From Clostridia bacterium (GTDB lineage Bacteria; CBDUZB01; JAGLHV01), in assembly GCA_030595925.1 (NCBI GenBank), contig JAUVLC010000075.1, positions 1 through 11,611 on the forward strand: a stretch of DNA of 11,611 nt, given 5' to 3'. Positions 2,401 to 11,403 of the stretch are shown piece after piece (within the stretch, counting starts at the first letter, position 1; every line of letters starts with the position of its first letter). Position numbers and translations under genes: made by a program. Below the pieces are notes generated by a model that ran no database searches, had not been told where the DNA came from, and saw only the letters and a program-made list of their open reading frames with translations.

Positions 2401-3315
2401 TTATTTTAAATGAATTGTAAAAAAGGTTATTTCGTTTTCTTCTTCTTTTCTTACCTTATATCTTATATCTTTTGGAACAATAATCATCTCTTTCGTTAAA
2501 TAACTTAATACTTTCTCTTTTCTTTCATGAGCTAATTCATATTCATCTTTTCCACCCTGGTATAATATTCCCACACTAAGAGGATGCCGGGAATATTGGC
2601 GTAAAATATCTATGATTTTATCTATAAGTTGTTTTCCGTTTTTTAAAAAGTTTGCTTTTTTGGAAGCATATAAAACCTTGTTGGCAATTTCAATCCGAAT
2701 TTTTCCTTTTTCTTCATACATTAAGGCATCTACTTGAAAAGTTTTTCCCAAGGTAGTATGTTCTCTACTATCTAAATCAATGGTTATGAATTTAAAAGAA
2801 TAAAGGGCATTTACATGAATCATTTTCCCCTTGTCATCTTTACCATCCCAGAGAATGACTTTTAAAGGAAGTCCCTTTCCTTCAATAACCTTAACCGTTC
2901 CCCCTTCTTCATTAGTTACCACCAGTCTCCATCCTTTTATTTTTCCCTGCGACAAATGGGGATAAAAAGAAATCAACGGTGGGGTAAGAATGTCAGATAA
3001 ATATGGCCTTACAACCTGATAACTATTTAACTGATTAAATTGAAGAAAATCACTCTTACTGGGAACAACAATATCATTTTGTAATAATTCCTCTGTTTTT
3101 TCCGTTGAAGAATCTAATAATTCCTCTATTTTTACATCAACTTTAGGGATTACTTTTTCTATTTCGATTTTATCCTTAGCCTCCCCTTTTATAACAACAT
3201 CCGATATTTCACTATCTGAACCTTTTTTATCAGGATCCTCTTTAGCTAATAAAATAGAACCATTCACTATCATCAATACGATAATTAATATTCCCGAAAA
3301 CTTTCCTTTTGTCAT
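2401..3315 (-). CDS. Exported protein with FlgD-like Ig domain and degenerate OmpA-like domain
   Basis: The protein has 304 aa. Residues 1-24 are a signal peptide (hydrophobic ILIIVLMIVNGSILLA) with no lipobox Cys. Residues about 37-85 are a charged linker. Residues about 127-195 match a FlgD-like Ig module (GWRLVVTNEEGG, then VILWDGKDDKG, then YSFKF), the same type as the C-terminal module of the PorV-like protein at 10027-11403. Residues about 208-280 follow the OmpA/Pal C-terminal fold: KVLYASKKANFLKNGKQLID, then EYELAHERKEKV. Arg265 fits the diaminopimelate-binding Arg, but the usual GxxD aspartate is not visible, so peptidoglycan binding is uncertain. I prefer the ATG at 3315 (GGAGGA 5 nt upstream) to the TTG one codon before it, which would be too close. 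Its role could be that of a Pal-like anchor for the neighbouring Exb/Tol machine; this is inferred. Confidence 0.65.
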   Translation of the reverse strand: MTKGKFSGILIIVLMIVNGSILLAKEDPDKKGSDSEISDVVIKGEAKDKIEIEKVIPKVDVKIEELLDSSTEKTEELLQNDIVVPSKSDFLQFNQLNSYQVVRPYLSDILTPPLISFYPHLSQGKIKGWRLVVTNEEGGTVKVIEGKGLPLKVILWDGKDDKGKMIHVNALYSFKFITIDLDSREHTTLGKTFQVDALMYEEKGKIRIEIANKVLYASKKANFLKNGKQLIDKIIDILRQYSRHPLSVGILYQGGKDEYELAHERKEKVLSYLTKEMIIVPKDIRYKVRKEEENEITFFTIHLK

Positions 3316-3435
3316 CAATATCCTCCCATTTCAAATTAATTTAAATTTTTAAATTTCCGCCTTAAAGACTGGCAAACAAAAATCATTTTTGGATTCCTAC
3401 TTTCCAGACTGTGTAATAATTCAATTTTTGGTAGT

Positions 3436-3472
3436 CGCAGGCTTTCTTGTCCGCCTTTGGAGGAAGCCTGCG
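3436..3472. repeat. GCAGGCTT hairpin repeat
   Basis: CGCAGGCTT (3436-3444) and AAGCCTGCG (3464-3472) form a perfect 9-bp stem around a 19-nt loop. It immediately precedes the related shorter palindrome at 3491-3508, with which it shares the GCAGGCT core. Confidence 0.6.
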
Positions 3473-3476
3473 GAAA

Positions 3477-3514
3477 AACTCCGACGATAACGCAGGCTAA
3501 AGCCTGCGGCTACC
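3477..3514. repeat. GCAGGCT palindromic repeat, copy 2
   Basis: This 38-bp block is identical to 711-748 except for one base. It contains CGCAGGCT (3491-3498), AA, and AGCCTGCG (3501-3508), followed by GCTACC. Confidence 0.7.
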
Positions 3515-3590
3515 TAAACAAATTCAAAACAAAGAAAAAAATAAGCATAAAGTTAAAAAACAATTCTCAAATGACAGACAAAAAACTAAC

Positions 3591-3630
3591 CACCCTCACC
3601 TTAATCCTCTCCCCTCAAGGGAGAGGAAAA
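3591..3630. repeat. CCCTCACC-type hairpin repeat, copy 2
   Basis: A CACCCTCACC lead is followed by a perfect stem CCTCTCCC (3606-3613) and GGGAGAGG (3619-3626) with loop CTCAA. It is related to the repeats at 638-686 and 3906-3961. Confidence 0.6.
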
Positions 3631-3662
3631 ATAAAAATTAAATCCGAAAGAAAGCCTGATAA

Positions 3663-3807
3663 AGAGATTGTTGAAAAACTCTTCGAAGGTGTCGTTGCGA
3701 GGAGAGAAACGACGAAGCAATCTTGTCGTTTTCGTCGAAGAATGAGATTGCCGCGCCCTTAAGGGCTCGCAAAGACAGAGACAAAAAGGCCTTTTTCAAC
3801 AATCTCT
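3663..3807. mobile_element. Foldback MITE-like repeat, copy 2
   Basis: This is a 145-bp element with ends AGAGATTGTTGAAAAA and, at the other side, TTTTTCAACAATCTCT. It aligns over its full length with 328-468 and has the same orientation, with scattered substitutions (for example GGAGAGAAACGACG here against GGAGCAAAACGACG there). The internal inverted segments are partly decayed (CTCGCAAAGAC instead of CTCGCAATGAC), which suggests age. No protein is encoded. Confidence 0.75.
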
Positions 3808-3905
3808 AAATCAGGAAACTACAAAACAAATTTTAAAGACTGATTCTTCGATTACACTCAGCAATAGTTCATCAGGCAACTACAAACTAATTACAAAATT
3901 TCTTA

Positions 3906-3961
3906 TAGCCCCTCCTCTTAATCTCCTCCCACAAGGGGGAGGAGAAACAAAAAGAATAGCA
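3906..3961. repeat. CTCCTCCC hairpin repeat next to the tonB-like stop codon, copy 3
   Basis: The stem CTCCTCCC (3923-3930) and GGGAGGAG (3937-3944) closes the loop ACAAGG, and an AAAGAATAGCA tail is shared with the copy at 638-686. It sits within 20 bp of the end of the minus-strand TonB-like gene, where a terminator would be expected. On that strand no U-run follows, so I class it as a dispersed repeat. Confidence 0.55.
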
Positions 3962-3963
3962 AA

Positions 3964-5244
3964 TTATTTAAGATAAAAATAGAAAGTTATAACTCCCCAT
4001 TGTTCTTTACCGTAAAACTTCTTCTCTAAAGCCGCAAATACCCATTGACTTAAAGCATCCATTACTAATCTATCCAATTTTGAATAACCGGATGTCCGTT
4101 CAACATAAATATTCTTCTTTACTTTTCCATTGGAAAGTACTACGAAATGTAAACTAACCGCCGCATCTACCCCTTGCCGTTTAGCCCATTCCGGATATTC
4201 AGGAATAATCTTATGAATTATTTTTCGGTTAGCTAATGGTCCTACTATTTCAAACAAGGTCTTCTTTTTACCCGCTGTACGCCGAATTACTTTCTCTTCG
4301 GTCTTTTTCTTGGACAGGGACTCCTCTTCCTCTATTTCTTCCCTAAATGACGCCCATCCTCCACCCCCTGTACCTCCTCCCGATGTCTTAAAAATTCCGC
4401 CGTATTTTCCACCGCCGCTTTTACCTCCTCCCGATGCTGTTTTATCACCACTTGTACTCCCTTCTGCCAAGTCACCGCCACCTCCGCCACTTATTTCCCC
4501 ACCAAAACGGTCACCCATACTATCAGATGATAATTCGTCTGAACCAAACCCTCCGCCAACTTTTGCCGTACCAAAAGTCTTCTCCCTCATCTTAGAGGAT
4601 TTAGCGTCCGGAATAAGCATTTTCTTGCTGGTACTGATACCTCTGGTAGTCTTACCTGTAGCAATAACGGCAACATTCTCTCCCACTTGTGAAATTCCTT
4701 CCTCTTTACTCACCTGAAAAGGAAGATCCTTGGAAGCTACAGAATAACTTCTGGATTCCATTTTTTTGACTTGCTTTTCGGTAACCTGTTCAGCATGTTT
4801 TGAAGCAAAAGCAATCTGCTCTTCGGTCATTGCCAGTTCCTGTTGAGCGGATTTACCTTTAAAACCAAAATCAGTCACCTTGCCATTTTTACTTACCAGC
4901 TTTCCCTTTGGTTTAATATCCTTTTCGGTAATTTTTATCGGTTTCAAAGTCATATCCATTTTACCGGCCAGTTCACTTTCCTTTTTTTTCGGCGGTTCTG
5001 CTTTTTTAAAAAACCGTTTTAGCTTACTGGCTAAACTAAGACTTTTTTTCTCACGATGGGTCATCGGAGGCGACCCTATTTCCTCGGTTATATAATCTAT
5101 ACTTATTATGGGATTGCGTATTTCTTTATTACGCATGGGGTCTACCTGCCAAAATAAAAGCAATAGATGCAACATCGCCGCTAATACCCAGCAAACTATT
5201 TCATCATTTATTCGGGGAGATATTAATTTTATTGTTATAACCAT
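3964..5244 (-). CDS. TonB/TolA-like energy transducer with glycine-rich linker
   Basis: The protein has 426 aa. It has a short cytoplasmic N-terminus, one membrane anchor (about 16-33, VCWVLAAMLHLLLLFW), a long Lys/Glu-rich periplasmic stretch (about 60-225), a Gly-rich region (229-297, with runs such as SGGGGGDL and SGGGTGGGG), and a TonB C-terminal domain (about 338-426: HKIIPEYPEWAKRQGVDAAV, then SNGKV). His26 in the anchor fits the His of the S-x-x-x-H motif that couples TonB/TolA to ExbB-ExbD/TolQ-TolR; the Ser position is Ala22. Classical TonB linkers are Pro-rich, so the Gly-rich linker is closer to AgmX/GltJ-type proteins. The ATG at 5244 has AGAGGT 9 nt upstream; a TTG start 13 codons earlier is less likely. 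It is the last gene of the operon, 137 bp after the second exbD. It should transmit inner-membrane motion to an outer-membrane or wall partner. Confidence 0.8.
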   Translation of the reverse strand: MVITIKLISPRINDEIVCWVLAAMLHLLLLFWQVDPMRNKEIRNPIISIDYITEEIGSPPMTHREKKSLSLASKLKRFFKKAEPPKKKESELAGKMDMTLKPIKITEKDIKPKGKLVSKNGKVTDFGFKGKSAQQELAMTEEQIAFASKHAEQVTEKQVKKMESRSYSVASKDLPFQVSKEEGISQVGENVAVIATGKTTRGISTSKKMLIPDAKSSKMREKTFGTAKVGGGFGSDELSSDSMGDRFGGEISGGGGGDLAEGSTSGDKTASGGGKSGGGKYGGIFKTSGGGTGGGGWASFREEIEEEESLSKKKTEEKVIRRTAGKKKTLFEIVGPLANRKIIHKIIPEYPEWAKRQGVDAAVSLHFVVLSNGKVKKNIYVERTSGYSKLDRLVMDALSQWVFAALEKKFYGKEQWGVITFYFYLK

Positions 5245-5381
5245 ATAAAAACTACCTCTTTTGCTATTCCCACCCCATATCAAGTTTAGGAACAGAAATA
5301 ACAGAGATTATCGGCGAACACACAATATATATATTTTTTTACATACAAAACAAGTTTTTTCCCCTGTATCTTTTTCAACCT

Positions 5382-5804
5382 TTACCATCTTTTAATCTTT
5401 TTAACTTTTTGTTTTGTTGCTACAGCTACTCTTCTCGCTCTTACTTTTTTAACCAGAATATCAAATATTTTTTCCACTTTGCCAAAAGGAATATCTTTAT
5501 CTGCCCTTACTATAACATATACATTCCTTCTTTTGCCTATCTTCTTTCTCACTTTAGGAACTAATTCCTCCCAGGTAACCTCTTCTGCATCTATAGCCAA
5601 TCTTCCATCCTTAGAATAACTAATCGTAACATTTTGCTCTTTTGATTCTTTAGTTACTGCTTCGGGTAATTCCACCGGAATACTGGGAATATTCACAATA
5701 GGAGCAACCATCATTAAAACAATTACCAAAACAAAAGCTACATTTATTATTGGTGCAATATATACCCCACCAATAGGGATTTCGTCTGTTCTTGTAACTT
5801 TCAT
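5382..5804 (-). CDS. ExbD/TolR-family protein, transmembrane Asp replaced by Asn
   Basis: The protein has 140 aa. It has a short N-terminal tail, one membrane helix (about 15-38, IAPIINVAFVLVIVLMMVAP) and a periplasmic ExbD/TolR domain (about 45-128). In the family the start of this helix carries an Asp that takes part in proton use. The canonical neighbour has PMCDLSLTL, while here the aligned residue is Asn21, codon AAT on the minus strand at 5744-5742. The rest of the domain looks sound (SKDGRLAIDAEEVTWEEL, then VYVIVRADKDIPFGKVEKI) and the gene is open, so this is not an obvious pseudogene. The C-terminus is very basic. The gene starts 12 bp after the first exbD, with TAGGAGAA overlapping that gene's stop codon. 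It may be a non-protonatable structural subunit of a hetero-oligomeric stator. Confidence 0.8.
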   Translation of the reverse strand: MKVTRTDEIPIGGVYIAPIINVAFVLVIVLMMVAPIVNIPSIPVELPEAVTKESKEQNVTISYSKDGRLAIDAEEVTWEELVPKVRKKIGKRRNVYVIVRADKDIPFGKVEKIFDILVKKVRARRVAVATKQKVKKIKRW

Positions 5805-5816
5805 TTTCGTATTCTC

Positions 5817-6242
5817 CTATTTTCTCTTTCGTCTTTTTATTAAAGAAACTTTACCGGCACCGTTTTGCTTAATAAGATCTAAAGTATGAACTACTTTCCC
5901 ATGCAAGACAGCCGGGTGAACCGTCACCATTACACTTTTATCCGCTTTTCTGGATAATTCAGCCAGTAGATGAGTAGCTAAATATAAATCAGATGGAACC
6001 TTCCTGTTGTTTAAATAAGTATCTTTCTCCCTGATATCAACAAAAAGCGGTTTTTCTTTTTTAGCTGCTTTAGTGCTACTTGCTACGGCACTGGAAGAAA
6101 AAACTTTTATCATCGATTGCATTATCATTGGGGAAATAACCATTAAAATAATTAACAGGGTCAATGAAAGGTCACACATTGGAGTAACATTTATATCAGC
6201 AATATCGCCCGATTCCCCTTTTTCCGTAGATCTTTTTCTCAT
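5817..6242 (-). CDS. ExbD/TolR-family protein (canonical Asp)
   Basis: The protein has 141 aa. The N-terminus is cytoplasmic and charged. A single membrane helix at about 18-42 contains NVTPMCDLSLTLLIILM, with Asp24 at the conserved proton-handling position, so this is the likely active ExbD/TolR subunit. The periplasmic part (about 55-135) is divergent but keeps the family's strand-helix layout (PLFVDIREKDTYLNNRKVPS). The gene follows exbB by 37 bp, with GGGAG about 8 nt before its ATG, and is followed 12 bp later by the second exbD. Two exbD/tolR genes behind one exbB/tolQ is a layout also seen in aglR-aglQ-aglS of myxobacteria. The C-terminal Lys/Arg cluster is shared with the second ExbD. 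Confidence 0.85.
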   Translation of the reverse strand: MRKRSTEKGESGDIADINVTPMCDLSLTLLIILMVISPMIMQSMIKVFSSSAVASSTKAAKKEKPLFVDIREKDTYLNNRKVPSDLYLATHLLAELSRKADKSVMVTVHPAVLHGKVVHTLDLIKQNGAGKVSLIKRRKRK

Positions 6243-6279
6243 TTATAATTCTCCCGTTTGTAAAAATAATTAAACGTTA

Positions 6280-6966
6280 CTATTTTATAATCCTATCGCC
6301 TTTGTGAGTAATAGAATGGGCGGCTGCCATTGCTGCTTTGGCTGTTCTTTTCTTCCTGAAAAGAAGAATTAATAATTCCTGGGTACAAGTGTCTATTTGG
6401 GTCATCTTACCGCGTATTTTATAAGTAAGAATGTTATAAACAACCGCAGACGGTATAGCAACTACTATTCCGGCTACAGTGGTAATCAATGCCTCGGAAA
6501 TACCTGCGGCCACAATAGTAGGCCCTCCTGATCCCGACAAAGCCAAATCATGAAAAGCACGAATAATTCCCAGCACCGTTCCCAACAGTCCCAGAAGAGG
6601 AGAAATAAAACTCATCGTTCCAAACAACCCCATTTTCCTGGAAAGAAGGTCGCGAATTCGCTGTTTGTAAATAGTCACCGTATCCTCTATGTCTAACCGG
6701 TTAAGCTGTGATGATTGTTCCAATACTACCATTATAAGCTGAGGAAACAATCCTTTTTCTTCTTTTGAAGCCATAATCGCTTCATTTAATTTGTTTTGCT
6801 CTGCAAGCGTTTTAACTTTAACCCAATAAGTATCTTTAAATTTTCCTGCCCGGGTAAAATAAACCCATCTCTCTAAAGCATAAGCAATCAACATAATAGA
6901 GCAGAATAAAAGAACCCCCATCACTACCGGACTTACCATCATAATATTCATAAAACTATAATCCAT
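6280..6966 (-). CDS. ExbB/TolQ/MotA-family proton channel protein
   Basis: The protein has 228 aa and three membrane segments: about 12-34, 116-138 and 155-181. The second and third form the MotA/TolQ/ExbB core: SPLLGLLGTVLGI (Thr130) and GISEALITTVAGIVVAIPSA (Glu158, Thr163). These match the conserved polar residues known as Thr148, Glu176 and Thr181 in E. coli ExbB. With ExbD it should form the inner-membrane complex that converts the proton motive force into movement of the TonB-like protein. The start codon follows the stop of the TPR gene without a gap (TAAATG), and its Shine-Dalgarno AAAGGAGG lies inside the last TPR codons, so translation is coupled. The length is normal for the family. 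ExbB and TolQ cannot be told apart from sequence alone. Confidence 0.9.
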   Translation of the reverse strand: MDYSFMNIMMVSPVVMGVLLFCSIMLIAYALERWVYFTRAGKFKDTYWVKVKTLAEQNKLNEAIMASKEEKGLFPQLIMVVLEQSSQLNRLDIEDTVTIYKQRIRDLLSRKMGLFGTMSFISPLLGLLGTVLGIIRAFHDLALSGSGGPTIVAAGISEALITTVAGIVVAIPSAVVYNILTYKIRGKMTQIDTCTQELLILLFRKKRTAKAAMAAAHSITHKGDRIIK

Positions 6967-9900
6967 TTACCTCTTTCCTCCTTTCAATAAATTAATTTTT
7001 TCCCTTGCCGTATTTATCCAACCGGCATCCGAACTATTTCCGGCAATATCCTGATAAACAACAATGGCTTCTTTGCTCTTGCCTTCCCTTTCATAAATCT
7101 CTCCTAAAGCAGCCAAACCAGCCAGCCGGAATTTATCCGTTGCCGGCCTAAATTTAAGAAATTGCTTATAAGTCTCCTTCACCTTGTCCGTCAGTTGTAA
7201 TTCCTGATAACACCTACCTGAATAAAATATCGCTTCGGATTTTTCTTTTAACTCGTCCGGCACTTTTTCGTAAAACTCAATGGCCTCCTTAAAGTTCCTT
7301 AATTCTTCATTTAATGACCCTATCTGTAAATAGGAAAAACCAACGGAATCATCCTGGGGATGATTTTCAATAAAACTTTTGTATCCTTCAATGGCTTCAT
7401 TAAAACGACGGGCTTTTTTATAACAAAGAGGAACATTTAACCGGGCATCTTTAGCAAGAGGATCCGTAGGATGTTTTTCTATAAAATTCATAAAAAAAGT
7501 AGTTGCCTGAAGATAATTTTTTCCTTTGAAAGCCGATACGGCTAAACGAAATCTCGCCTGTAGGGCAAGGTCATCTTCAGAAAAATTCCGAATAAAATTT
7601 TCATAGTCTTTTATGGCTGATTCATATTTTTCTTCCATAAAACTTACTTCAGCTAAATAATACATCGCTTTTTTAGCCGTTTCCGTTTCCGGAAAATCGA
7701 CAACGATTTTATTAAAATATTCTTTTGCCACAGCATAATTCTTTTTATTAAATGCCTCTGCCCCTAATTCCCAATAAGAATCTACCGCAAATTTACTTTT
7801 AGGAAATTCTTTAAGTAATTTTCCTAACTCTTTACCTTTTTTACCCTGCCGATAATAACAAGTCTGCAATTGTTCCAGAACATAAGGTATTTTTTCGTCT
7901 TGAGGAAATTGATTGATAAAATTTTTATAAAGCGTAATTGCCGAATCAATATTTCCTGCGTTATAATAGCATTGACCGAGTTGCAGAGAACTCTCTTTTA
8001 ATAATTCAGAAGAAGGATAAGCATCTACCAAAAGCTGATATGCCTGTATAGCTACCTTATATTTCCACATTCCAAAATAAGTTTTTCCTATTTGAAACAA
8101 GGCTTTTGGGGCAAACTCACTCTCCGAATATTTACCGGCTGTTTTTTTCCATTTTCTTACTGCTTCTTCATAAAATTGCAACCGGTACAAAGCCACTCCC
8201 TGTTGATACAATGCCCGACTTATATTAATATCATCAGGATATTTTAATACAAACATATCATAATAAGTAATTGCTTTTTCGTACTCTCTTTGATTAAAAA
8301 GGATATTAGCTGTTTCCAAACTGGCCCGTGCACTTACCTCTCTCTTTTCCATTTCAATAGCAAGTTCCCCCGCTTTCTTCTGAGCTCTTTTGGCCTCTTC
8401 ATATTTACCTTCTTTAGCATAGCAAGCGGCAATAGCATGCTGTGCTTCAGGAACAAGCCGATGATAAGGATAATTTTTAACTATCAAATCATAAACCGAA
8501 CTTGCACGATTATATTGTTTAAGCTGAAAATATGATTCCGCTACCCAAAAATATGCTTCCGCCTGCCATTTGCTCGGACTGGTAGGAGAATTTTTTAAAA
8601 TCTGATACACATGGGTAACTACCTGTGCATATTCTTCGCTTTGATAATAAGAAGTAGCTAAAAGGTATGTGGCCATTTCTGAAAACATTGTTTCCGGAAA
8701 TTGGTCAATTATCTCCTGATAATCCCTATTTGCTTCATCGAATTTTTCTGTTTTCTGGAAGGCAATAGCTTTAAGCAATTTCACTTTAGCCACTAATTTG
8801 CCCCATTGATATTCCTGCAGGAAATTTTCCGCACGGGTAATTACTTCCCCATATTGTTCTTCCAAAACATAACACCAAATTATTTTAAACGCAGCATCCA
8901 TACAAATTTCCGGTTCTTTTAACACCTGGGAAAAGTTATTTAATGCCGCAGCAAAGTCTCTTTTTCGCAACGCTAATTCTCCCAAAAAATATTTACTTAT
9001 AGGAACCAAAGAGTCATCAGGAAAACTTTCAATAAGCCTTGTAAACTTCATACTTGCTTCATTAAATTTTTCCTTTTGCATTTTGCAACAAGCCATATAA
9101 AACAAAGCATGCACCCTTAACTCGCTATCAACATATTCCCTAAATATTTTTTCAAACGATTTATAAGCTAAAGAATATTGTTTGATTTGATAAAGACATT
9201 CTCCACTGCTATAAACAGCCTTTTCTGCCCATTTACTATCCGGTGCTTTTTCTACCACCTGTTTAAACAGACTTAAAGCATTCATTGTTTCTTTTGCTTT
9301 TTGATGAACTATTCCATTATAATAAATACAGCCAATGTCTTCTTCATTTTCCTTCAAATAACCCATTGCTGTTTTTATTTGATTGTCCTGCAATAAAATA
9401 AGAATAAGAGGAAGGATAACCTTAGCTTCTTTTCGATATCCCGGATAAAATTGTATTAATTCCAGCAGATTTTCTTTACTTTTGGCATATTCTTCCATTG
9501 CCAAATAGCAAAGGGCAGATCCGTAAAATGCTTCCGCTCTAAGATTTTTATTTTTTCCTTTTAATGTTTTCTTAAAATAATCAAGCGCAACTAAATATTT
9601 ATTCATATTAAAATTACATTCGCCTAAACGATAAACAGCGTTTAAGTATATATTCTTATCCCGGGAATATTTATTTACCGTTCGTTTAAATTCCTTAGCA
9701 GCTAAAGGATATTTGTTTTGCTGAAAAAGGCATTCCCCGAGCATAAATTGAGCCTGGGCAGCTTTAATGTCGTCGGGAAAACTACGCACAAATTCCCGGT
9801 ATTCGCTAATAGCTAAATCTATATTCCCCTTCCGATAAGTAAAAGAGCCTAAATTATACTGAATTATAGCCTCTGTTCTATCTTTTTGTTTTTTAGCAAA

Positions 9901-9975
9901 ACCAACAACCGTAAACAAAAACACAAAAAAAACAATCAAACAAATTCCGGATTTTAATCTTCTAAAAAGATTCAT
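6967..9975 (-). CDS. Large exported tetratricopeptide-repeat protein
   Basis: The protein has 1002 aa. Residues 1-27 are a signal peptide (CLIVFFVFLFTVVGFA, then KK). The rest is an almost unbroken series of TPR-like helical pairs about 34-40 residues long, roughly two dozen by eye. They carry recurrent patterns such as GNIDLAISEYREFVRSFPDD, Y-x-x-A-x-x-x-Y/F, and FP at the end of the second helix. This is the YbgF/CpoB and BamD type of TPR. CpoB, the TPR protein of Tol-Pal operons, has about 260 aa, so this is around four times longer. It probably forms a periplasmic superhelical scaffold linking the barrel encoded upstream to the Exb complex encoded downstream. The ATG at 9975 is preceded by GAGGGG. 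It is the second gene of the operon, 51 bp after the PorV-like gene. No enzymatic domain is visible. Confidence 0.85.
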   Translation of the reverse strand: MNLFRRLKSGICLIVFFVFLFTVVGFAKKQKDRTEAIIQYNLGSFTYRKGNIDLAISEYREFVRSFPDDIKAAQAQFMLGECLFQQNKYPLAAKEFKRTVNKYSRDKNIYLNAVYRLGECNFNMNKYLVALDYFKKTLKGKNKNLRAEAFYGSALCYLAMEEYAKSKENLLELIQFYPGYRKEAKVILPLILILLQDNQIKTAMGYLKENEEDIGCIYYNGIVHQKAKETMNALSLFKQVVEKAPDSKWAEKAVYSSGECLYQIKQYSLAYKSFEKIFREYVDSELRVHALFYMACCKMQKEKFNEASMKFTRLIESFPDDSLVPISKYFLGELALRKRDFAAALNNFSQVLKEPEICMDAAFKIIWCYVLEEQYGEVITRAENFLQEYQWGKLVAKVKLLKAIAFQKTEKFDEANRDYQEIIDQFPETMFSEMATYLLATSYYQSEEYAQVVTHVYQILKNSPTSPSKWQAEAYFWVAESYFQLKQYNRASSVYDLIVKNYPYHRLVPEAQHAIAACYAKEGKYEEAKRAQKKAGELAIEMEKREVSARASLETANILFNQREYEKAITYYDMFVLKYPDDINISRALYQQGVALYRLQFYEEAVRKWKKTAGKYSESEFAPKALFQIGKTYFGMWKYKVAIQAYQLLVDAYPSSELLKESSLQLGQCYYNAGNIDSAITLYKNFINQFPQDEKIPYVLEQLQTCYYRQGKKGKELGKLLKEFPKSKFAVDSYWELGAEAFNKKNYAVAKEYFNKIVVDFPETETAKKAMYYLAEVSFMEEKYESAIKDYENFIRNFSEDDLALQARFRLAVSAFKGKNYLQATTFFMNFIEKHPTDPLAKDARLNVPLCYKKARRFNEAIEGYKSFIENHPQDDSVGFSYLQIGSLNEELRNFKEAIEFYEKVPDELKEKSEAIFYSGRCYQELQLTDKVKETYKQFLKFRPATDKFRLAGLAALGEIYEREGKSKEAIVVYQDIAGNSSDAGWINTAREKINLLKGGKR

Positions 9976-10026
9976 TTATAATATCCCCTCTCTTCAATAA
10001 ATATTCTGTTATTTGTATTTTACAAC

Positions 10027-11403
10027 TTATTCAATATTCTGTTTAATATTCTGAATATTTTCTTCTGATTTTTCTTTTGTTTTCTCTTCTACCACCTCTT
10101 CTTTTTCCTCTTCGCCGGTTACATCCCCTTCTCTACCGCGCATTTCCATTTCTACTTCTCCCCGCACCGGCACATTAAACCTTACGTTTACTTTTCCTTT
10201 TTCCATCCATTCCTTATCGTCTTTATAAATTACTTTGAATTTATACCGGTATAATCCTTCCTTCACCGGCCTGCCCGCCTCATCTTTCATATCCCAGATT
10301 ACTATCTTCGGCGGTTGATGTTCTCCTTTTATATCTCTAACCACTCCGCCCAATTCATCGATTACTTCTAAATTCCACATCCTTACTTCAAATCTTAACT
10401 CTCCTACCTCAAACTGCAATTCATTATGTAACCCTTCTAATACATACTCTCCTTTTCCCACTCCTTTTTTTAACTTCGGAACTGCCTTACCCCGATATAA
10501 ATTAAACCATTTTAAACTGAAACTTACCCGGTGTAAATCTCCTAACGTCTCATGCCCGCTATACGCATAATCTATTCCTATAGGTCCCCTGGCCATCCCT
10601 AAACCATAGGTAACCTCGCTTAAATGACTTAAACCTGCTCTGAAACTTATTAATTCTCCCCACGGTGATATCTCAAGCCCTCCACAATAATAAGCTTCCT
10701 CTCCTTCTAACCGGTTTACATCTATAGTCATTACGGCTTTATCTTTGAACGGCTTCAGAACTAATCCACCTTTGAAATTGGTCTTGTAAATATTCTCTTC
10801 GTCTCTTAATGTTACCTTCGGTGTTAAGATATTATCTATTGCCAATCCTATCCTTAGTACCGGAGAAAATTGATACATCCCTCCCAGATCAAATCCATAT
10901 CCGCTACCCGCATAGCCCATATCTTTTTCCTGCACTAACTTTAAATTTATTCCCGCACATACTTTCCCCGTCTTCCTTCCGTAGGAACATATTATCGTAT
11001 TGTGCATTATTGATTCATCGTCACTGATTAAATTATTTAAGTAATCCCTTTCTTCAAATCCTCCCGAATAAAGCATTACATCCGTTATCGCAAAACTCCC
11101 CAGTTTCGGGCCTAAAGGATGTGCCGAAGCTATAAAATTTAAACTCGTCCCTTCAAAAAAAGAAGCATACATACTACTTATTTCAAACTCATCCATCAGT
11201 GCCAATCCCGCCGGATTCCAATACCCTGCACTGGCTTCATCCGCTAAACCTACATATGCCCCTCCCATTGCCAACGCCCGTGCACCTATCCCATATTGTA
11301 AATAGTCGTTCGGCTGACCGTAATAGTTTTTGGAAAAAACTATTCCTTTCGCCAGGATTATAATAACAATACTGATAATAATTGTCAATATTTTTTTAAA
11401 CAT
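10027..11403 (-). CDS. PorV/PorQ-family outer-membrane beta-barrel with C-terminal FlgD-like domain
   Basis: The protein has 458 aa. Residues 1-24 are a signal peptide. Residues about 30-302 are a barrel of the PorV/PorQ (UPF0164) type, marked by GARALAMGGAYVGLAD (40-55) and WNPAGLA (62-68), followed by alternating beta strands. Residues about 341-412 form a FlgD-like Ig module (MWNLEVIDELGG, WDMKDEAGRPVKEG, YRYKFKV). Residues about 413-458 are a Glu/Lys-rich tail that may contact the periplasmic partners. PorV is an outer-membrane component of type IX secretion in Bacteroidota, but related barrels occur without that system, and no other type IX gene is seen here. It is first in the operon. 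GAGGG lies only 3 nt before the ATG, an unusually short spacing. A TGTGA-N6-TCACA palindrome lies about 55 bp upstream. The Ig module is shared with the OmpA-like protein at 2401-3315. Confidence 0.8.
   Translation of the reverse strand: MFKKILTIIISIVIIILAKGIVFSKNYYGQPNDYLQYGIGARALAMGGAYVGLADEASAGYWNPAGLALMDEFEISSMYASFFEGTSLNFIASAHPLGPKLGSFAITDVMLYSGGFEERDYLNNLISDDESIMHNTIICSYGRKTGKVCAGINLKLVQEKDMGYAGSGYGFDLGGMYQFSPVLRIGLAIDNILTPKVTLRDEENIYKTNFKGGLVLKPFKDKAVMTIDVNRLEGEEAYYCGGLEISPWGELISFRAGLSHLSEVTYGLGMARGPIGIDYAYSGHETLGDLHRVSFSLKWFNLYRGKAVPKLKKGVGKGEYVLEGLHNELQFEVGELRFEVRMWNLEVIDELGGVVRDIKGEHQPPKIVIWDMKDEAGRPVKEGLYRYKFKVIYKDDKEWMEKGKVNVRFNVPVRGEVEMEMRGREGDVTGEEEKEEVVEEKTKEKSEENIQNIKQNIE

Follow-up and report, generated by a model that had tools for sequence, protein, structure and literature searches.

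The type IX secretion system of the Bacteroidota comprises SprA/Sov, PorV, SprE/PorW, GldLM and cargo with C-terminal domains (CTDs), and in Flavobacterium loss of the motor traps CTD substrates on SprA-PorV, the proton-motive force (PMF) being needed for extraction of the PorV-substrate complex (PMC10994853). PorW, a TPR protein, links the motor and ring to the translocon (PMC8754138), and there is a precedent for ExbBD-TonB powering protein secretion by way of a receptor-type barrel (PMC6434023). Here we analyse an 11,611 bp contig (C68, the whole of which is the window referred to below) from a 2.6 Mb genome that is 97% complete (G000), in which seven minus-strand open reading frames (ORFs) encode, in order, PorV-Ig, a TPR protein, ExbB, two ExbD proteins (ExbDa and ExbDb), TonB and Ig-OmpA. 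Judging from synteny, co-occurrence and residue patterns, we lean on balance towards the view that this cluster is an ExbBD/TonB-type proton-driven energiser of SprA/PorV (type IX-like) export and surface display that replaces GldLM, which is the simplest reading when the three published findings above are taken together.

Like type IX secretion, the locus has a TPR protein that is large and periplasmic, motor proteins of the PMF-driven 5:2 type and an OmpA-like wall anchor (compare PorE), and every genome that carries it also encodes a homologue of SprA, barrels of the PorV family and type A CTD proteins; the locus differs in having no detectable GldM, a motor of ExbB, two ExbDs and TonB, and a PorV with a C-terminal Ig domain. 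The vWA force-transducer clusters of PVC (Planctomycetes-Verrucomicrobia-Chlamydiae) bacteria (TPR-TolQ-TolR-TolR-vWA; PMC12204202) are among the nearest published arrangements, but here the transducer is a TonB_C protein without vWA, followed by Ig-OmpA, and is linked to PorV and a CTD protein. Fibrobacter succinogenes FSU_2400-2403 have the order ExbB-ExbD-ExbD-TonB (PMC6851124), a likeness drawn from their published description. Tol-Pal also has a TolQ/TolR-like motor, a TPR protein and an OmpA-type domain, whereas here there are two different TolR-type proteins and a PorV barrel. The Myxococcus Agl-Glt gliding motor likewise combines one TolQ-type with two TolR-type subunits and has TPR and TonB-like parts; the present cluster is instead linked to SprA, PorV and CTD proteins, and one of its ExbDs lacks the pore Asp in several lineages. 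Since every carrier has SprA, proteins of the PorV family and type IX sorting domains, a giant CTD protein is encoded upstream of PorV and GldM is not detectable, type IX secretion is the closest known frame, rather than Tol-Pal or Agl-Glt.

Conservation of the gene order

The seven genes are real, as a preliminary description of the locus had held. That description had also made its proposal of a distinct machine energising a PorV-type outer-membrane complex depend on a gene order conserved in relatives, and the same order and strand do recur in genomes of other phyla at 20-40% protein identity; because the full order recurs there, it is beyond chance. Two genomes in our set are kin of G000 at the genus level or closer, the others sampled as relatives being kin at the domain level only, and we label as class A the genomes and loci that carry this cluster type, with full-length Ig-OmpA. 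In G027, a high-GC genome of another phylum, all seven genes lie in the same order: PorV-Ig is 29% identical to that of the window over 375 aa, the Ig part included, the TPR protein is a full-length homologue (206 bits over 848 aa), ExbB is 32% identical, the TonB C-terminal domain 42% identical, and Ig-OmpA matches at 44 bits. Window ExbDa matches G027 ExbDa and ExbDb at 64 and 45 bits respectively, and window ExbDb matches G027 ExbDb and ExbDa at 83 and 35 bits.

Further loci came from a TonB-profile scan of 386 genomes followed by gene maps based on ORFs and hidden Markov models. These place the core TPR-ExbB-ExbD-ExbD-TonB-Ig in G174, G074, G281, G337, G144 and G066, and the part from ExbB to Ig in G340, where a contig end is close by. 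Within the 45-genome phylum that includes G066 and G337, Ig-OmpA is present in about 25 genomes and the cluster occurs across several families, being complete from PorV-Ig to Ig-OmpA in nine fetched loci besides those of G066 and G337 (L180-L183, L186-L188, L195 and L197); family f263 is rearranged, with PorV-Ig followed directly by ExbD-ExbD-TonB-Ig in L189 and TPR-ExbB without PorV in L193. Full-length Ig-OmpA was found in 9 of the 386 genomes, from nine different families, at 258 bits or more against 71 for the next best, using a profile that was built from those nine genomes and may miss more distant members. A literature search, with preprints and many subscription papers outside its reach, found no report of this arrangement.

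The barrel with an Ig module that the preliminary description had seen in the first gene stands: PorV_fam scores 87.8 bits on the window barrel against a cut-off of 90, and 90.3 with the neighbouring pieces in a whole-frame search, and the same architecture recurs in L045, L117, L124 and L128 and in the nine fetched loci listed above. A sequence search of the PDB with PorV-Ig gave nothing meaningful. Its picture of a compact operon applies to the first six genes, among which the TPR stop codon abuts the ExbB ATG, with GGAGG upstream, and ExbDa and ExbDb are 12 bp apart, in agreement with the translational coupling it had proposed for TPR and ExbB; it does not extend to Ig-OmpA, which a 648 bp repeat-bearing spacer sets apart in the window, unlike other lineages in which Ig-OmpA directly follows TonB.

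SprA, PorV and the giant upstream protein

Models for SprA (TIGR04189, cut-off 200 bits), the PorV family (NF033709), the type A CTD (TIGR04183) and GldM (TIGR03517) were used to survey the genomes. Every one of the 11 class-A genomes surveyed gave a SprA match and the 14 control genomes gave none; the same 11 all have PorV-family proteins (5-40 each) and type A CTDs (2-130 each); the SprA of G000, of 1748 aa, is matched in four stretches at 150.5 bits (E 3.6e-44), under the cut-off. At E 1e-3 none of the class-A genomes matched GldM, in a search that did not include GldL. Among the 386 genomes SprA is present in 153 (90 over cut-off) and GldM in four (three over cut-off, none class A), only two of which are SprA-bearing; this puts in question the power source of SprA-type export elsewhere, for which the cluster is a concrete candidate. 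All nine Ig-OmpA genomes carry SprA, as against 144 of the 377 others (Fisher p 2e-4, kinship ignored), and TonB matches of at least 45 bits in the 386-genome scan were commoner in SprA-bearing genomes (32/43 versus 121/343).

Among the PorV matches listed for the first 60 genomes, at least six pairs, the window included, have PorV no more than 4 kb ahead of an ExbB that shares its strand, where uniform placement would give 0.59, a rough comparison; chance co-location was rejected, p still being 0.01 on a rough estimate if local clustering were threefold. In L132, L133 and L137-L141 genes for an Ig/CTD protein, PorV and ExbB, in most cases joined by ExbD and TonB, form one same-strand run that is built differently from the window cluster, and these are perhaps further TonB-type motors for PorV systems. 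Single proteins consisting of a PorV-type barrel, an Ig part and a clear OmpA domain are encoded at L201:3343-5382 and L202:1150-3228, with SprA following about 8-9 kb downstream on that strand.

In most loci whose contig extends upstream of PorV-Ig, the gene immediately before it encodes a giant Ig/CTD protein. Only about 200 bp lie between porV and the end of the window contig, and this flank is 76% identical over 211 nt to L149:7027-7237; in the congeners a giant Ig-repeat protein gene precedes porV, encoding 1897 aa in L149 and the C-terminal 1074 aa in L152, and a giant protein followed by PorV-Ig is also found in L045, L117, L124, L128, L183 and L186-L188. The C-termini of these proteins match FlgD_ig, Por_Secre_tail, PorU-CTD or TIGR04183, several near or under the cut-offs, while that in G002 matches TIGR04183 at 31 bits, over the cut-off. 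Two near-identical PorV-Ig copies appear to flank the giant gene in the window genus (L149, L151 and L152, that is G001:C366, G002:C107 and G002:C109), which would explain the break of the window contig. At least seven of the listed CTD genes of G000 are followed directly by a PorV-family gene, which makes cargo-then-shuttle pairs common there. G000 also encodes PorV-family barrels with C-terminal TPR arrays of 660-700 aa (L209:1979-3973 and L211:1971-4070).

The giant protein and the PorV shuttle, encoded immediately upstream in several lineages, could also be read as belonging to a dedicated adhesin machine, in which the motor moves, presents or anchors the giant Ig-repeat protein in a gliding- or attachment-like manner, as with SprB and GldLM, and does not serve bulk secretion. 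Operons of F. johnsoniae encoding a CTD protein, a shuttle and a PorE-like protein have been proposed to form wall-anchored complexes (PMC12618676), and the AglRQS gliding motor is likewise built from one MotA/TolQ-type subunit and two of the MotB/TolR type (PMC9389320). We regard this reading as rather unlikely, given that G281 and G144 keep the motor core without an adjoining giant protein or PorV and yet have SprA, PorV-family and CTD proteins, which favours a general role over one confined to the giant protein; moreover, the Glt-type matches are confined to a generic TPR match to GltC (21.5 bits, cut-off 450) and a match of TonB to the AgmX tail (19.5, cut-off 40).

The motor and its periplasmic partners

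The features of the 5:2 motor superfamily are present, namely MotA_ExbB, an ExbD with the pore Asp (ExbDa), and a TonB with a transmembrane (TM) His and TonB_C; the ExbD model matches two window proteins, at 77 and 58 bits (Pfam/NCBIfam). The TM His of TonB is found in all 28 loci, with Ser four residues before it in many of them and Ala in the window genus. In the ExbB tree a branch with 99/98 support divides the 16 class-A sequences, which share their side with two other rows and the E. coli references, from 30 other ExbBs, including four other G000 copies and the second G074 copy; a single class-A clade is not rejected (approximately unbiased test, p 0.43), and from the placement of E. coli ExbB and TolQ, which are on long branches, we conclude nothing.

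This branch bears on a simpler reading, that the genes serve ordinary nutrient uptake via TonB-dependent receptors and stand beside PorV by accident of history. Domains of ExbB, ExbD and TonB are present, plug-domain proteins occur in 11 of 11 genomes, and the similar Fibrobacter operon, which was raised on cellulose together with CTD cellulases and for which no cognate receptor was found, was interpreted by its authors as serving cellodextrin import (PMC6851124). Such uptake is nevertheless highly improbable, and was rejected as the principal function: no receptor gene is seen in the window or the mapped clusters, G281 and G144 retain the whole core with one plug-domain match each, and G000 has a separate receptor-linked ExbB/ExbD/TonB cluster, with DUF3450, on C93, whose ExbBs fall across the 99/98 branch. 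Nesting of the window ExbB among receptor-linked ExbBs, which the preliminary description had named as fatal to its distinct machine, was thus not found; with the gene order also conserved, that proposal is still the best reading, the energising step being our inference.

Over 15 loci ExbDa and ExbDb are each set apart by a branch (SH-like approximate likelihood ratio test, 97 and 84), a split that marks them, on tree evidence, as separate and old paralogues. The pore Asp, present in 21 of 21 non-class-A ExbDs compared, is replaced in ExbDb by Asn in the window genus, Ala in G340 and Ser in G074, and in ExbDa by Asn in G281 and G144, which are sisters in the ExbB tree. If the G340 and G074 changes arose independently, the losses number at least four; they affect either partner but never both, a pattern that predicts an ExbDa/ExbDb heterodimer in one pentamer. 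The use of heterodimers by 5:2 motors was stated to be unknown for AglRQS (AglQ/AglS) (PMC9389320), and the repeated loss of the Asp in one of two ExbD paralogues bears on that question. A second ExbB-ExbD-ExbD-TonB set in G000 (L041, on C156), with both Asp residues kept, adjoins a gene for a 551-aa protein without any Pfam match.

In the OmpA-like protein of the preliminary description, the OmpA domain is unrecognised by Pfam, whereas a nine-lineage profile compared with the PDB finds OmpA-type domains (YiaD, DotK, MotS and MotY) and the FlgD Ig, with weak E-values; the domain call is supported by fused PorV-Ig-OmpA proteins with clear PF00691 in G066 and G337. The order of strands and helices after the Ig part is OmpA-like in a single-sequence AlphaFold model that, at a predicted local distance difference test score of 38, is not usable as evidence. 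Known TonB boxes include DTLVVTA and DALTVVG, and a [DES][VIL][VIT][VI]x[GA] stretch near the mature N-terminus in 26 of 27 Ig-OmpA sequences is suggestive of such a box.

An OmpA-like domain resembling Pal-type folds also invites a Tol-Pal-like reading, in which TolQ, two TolR proteins, a TolA-like TonB, a CpoB-like TPR protein and a Pal-like Ig-OmpA tether or constrict the outer membrane and the link to PorV is secondary. ExbB matches TolQ best (98 bits), the ExbDs TolR and the TPR protein YbgF, and the core can stand without PorV; the equivalog cut-offs of TolQ, TolR and CpoB are however unreached, Ig-OmpA has no visible lipobox, and PorV-Ig and Ig-OmpA have an Ig domain in common. We therefore think this reading improbable, and rejected membership of Tol-Pal itself, as neither TolB nor a Pal lipoprotein is matched among the window proteins (no genome-wide search was made) and the core on the other cluster maps has no extra gene that could be TolB.

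If the cluster does energise SprA/PorV export, we infer the following path of force. An ExbB pentamer would hold ExbDa and ExbDb as a heterodimer, which would be moved by protons passing at least one ExbD Asp; TonB, whose TM helix with the conserved His would dock on ExbB, would carry the force across the periplasm, where its C-terminal domain may engage the PorV shuttle at the Ig domain, Ig-OmpA (which has a TonB-box-like N-terminus and a C-terminus of the peptidoglycan-binding type), or both. PorV-Ig would be a cargo shuttle with a periplasmic docking module, and the giant TPR protein a bridge, as SprE/PorW is in type IX secretion. What the force would accomplish is the extraction of PorV with its cargo from the SprA translocon, for which Flavobacterium uses GldLM.

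Several observations weigh against this proposal. The SprA gene lies elsewhere in the genome, outside the cluster, and at least two genomes (G281 and G144) keep the six genes from TPR to Ig-OmpA without an adjoining PorV. The TonB-box resemblance is short and moderately conserved, the match of the TPR protein to the PorW/SprE model is generic (114 bits, cut-off 250, with other TPR models scoring higher), the Fisher test of SprA co-occurrence takes no account of kinship, and a divergent GldM could have been missed. Most SprA-bearing genomes sampled are without class A, so the cluster cannot be a general solution, and other Exb clusters may do the job there. We offer as a tentative possibility the broader idea that TonB-type motors, not GldLM, drive type IX-like secretion in most SprA-bearing bacteria outside the Bacteroidota, this cluster being one branch, built on an obligate ExbDa/ExbDb heterodimer that would need only one proton-binding Asp.

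Other features of the window

The features of the cluster and its flank are collected in Table 1. The TonB ORF runs to a TTG at 5283, and the start is probably the ATG at 5244, as the congener begins at the matching ATG; Ig-OmpA, listed to 3318, probably starts at the ATG at 3315, which is preceded by GGGAGGA.

Table 1. Coordinates of the seven genes, the spacer and the upstream flank
Feature	Position	Strand	Evidence
PorV-family outer-membrane barrel (residues ~30-300) with C-terminal FlgD-like Ig domain (~330-400)	10027..11403	-	PorV_fam
Exported TPR protein, 1002 aa, YbgF/BamD-type repeats, no visible Cys lipobox	6967..9975	-	TPR/YbgF-like models
ExbB/TolQ-type proton-channel subunit	6280..6966	-	MotA_ExbB 93 bits; class-A group in ExbB tree
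ExbDa, pore Asp present (INVTPMCD)	5817..6242	-	ExbD model
ExbDb, Asn in place of pore Asp (IAPIIN)	5382..5804	-	ExbD model; congener L037 identical in this
Long Gly-rich TonB, TM His (..LAAMLH..), C-terminal TonB domain	3964..5244	-	TonB_C 41 bits
Exported Ig and OmpA-like protein, TonB-box-like SDVVIKG near mature N-terminus	2401..3315	-	Nine-lineage profile versus PDB; motif
Intergenic spacer, 648 bp, dispersed repeats	3316..3963		Repeat copies
Upstream flank up to contig end	11404..11611		Resembles congener L149 stretch between giant CTD-protein gene and porV

The dispersed intergenic repeats have copies at two places in the window (3654-3764 and 317-427, 3474-3514 and 708-748, 3783-3824 and 446-487), the copies between 3474 and 3824 lying inside the operon spacer. 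On the plus strand, 824-1709 holds two coding stretches: an MNT-type nucleotidyltransferase, winged-helix-like at its N-terminus (27.5 bits to the MntA model, under cut-off), and after it a short ORF of HEPN-like appearance whose end lies in repeat-like DNA. The two may be a decayed toxin-antitoxin pair of the MNT/HEPN kind. A 32-nt inverted repeat at 1840-1871 and 2216-2247, 94% complementary with a 344-nt gap, resembles a small mobile element of the miniature inverted-repeat transposable element type.

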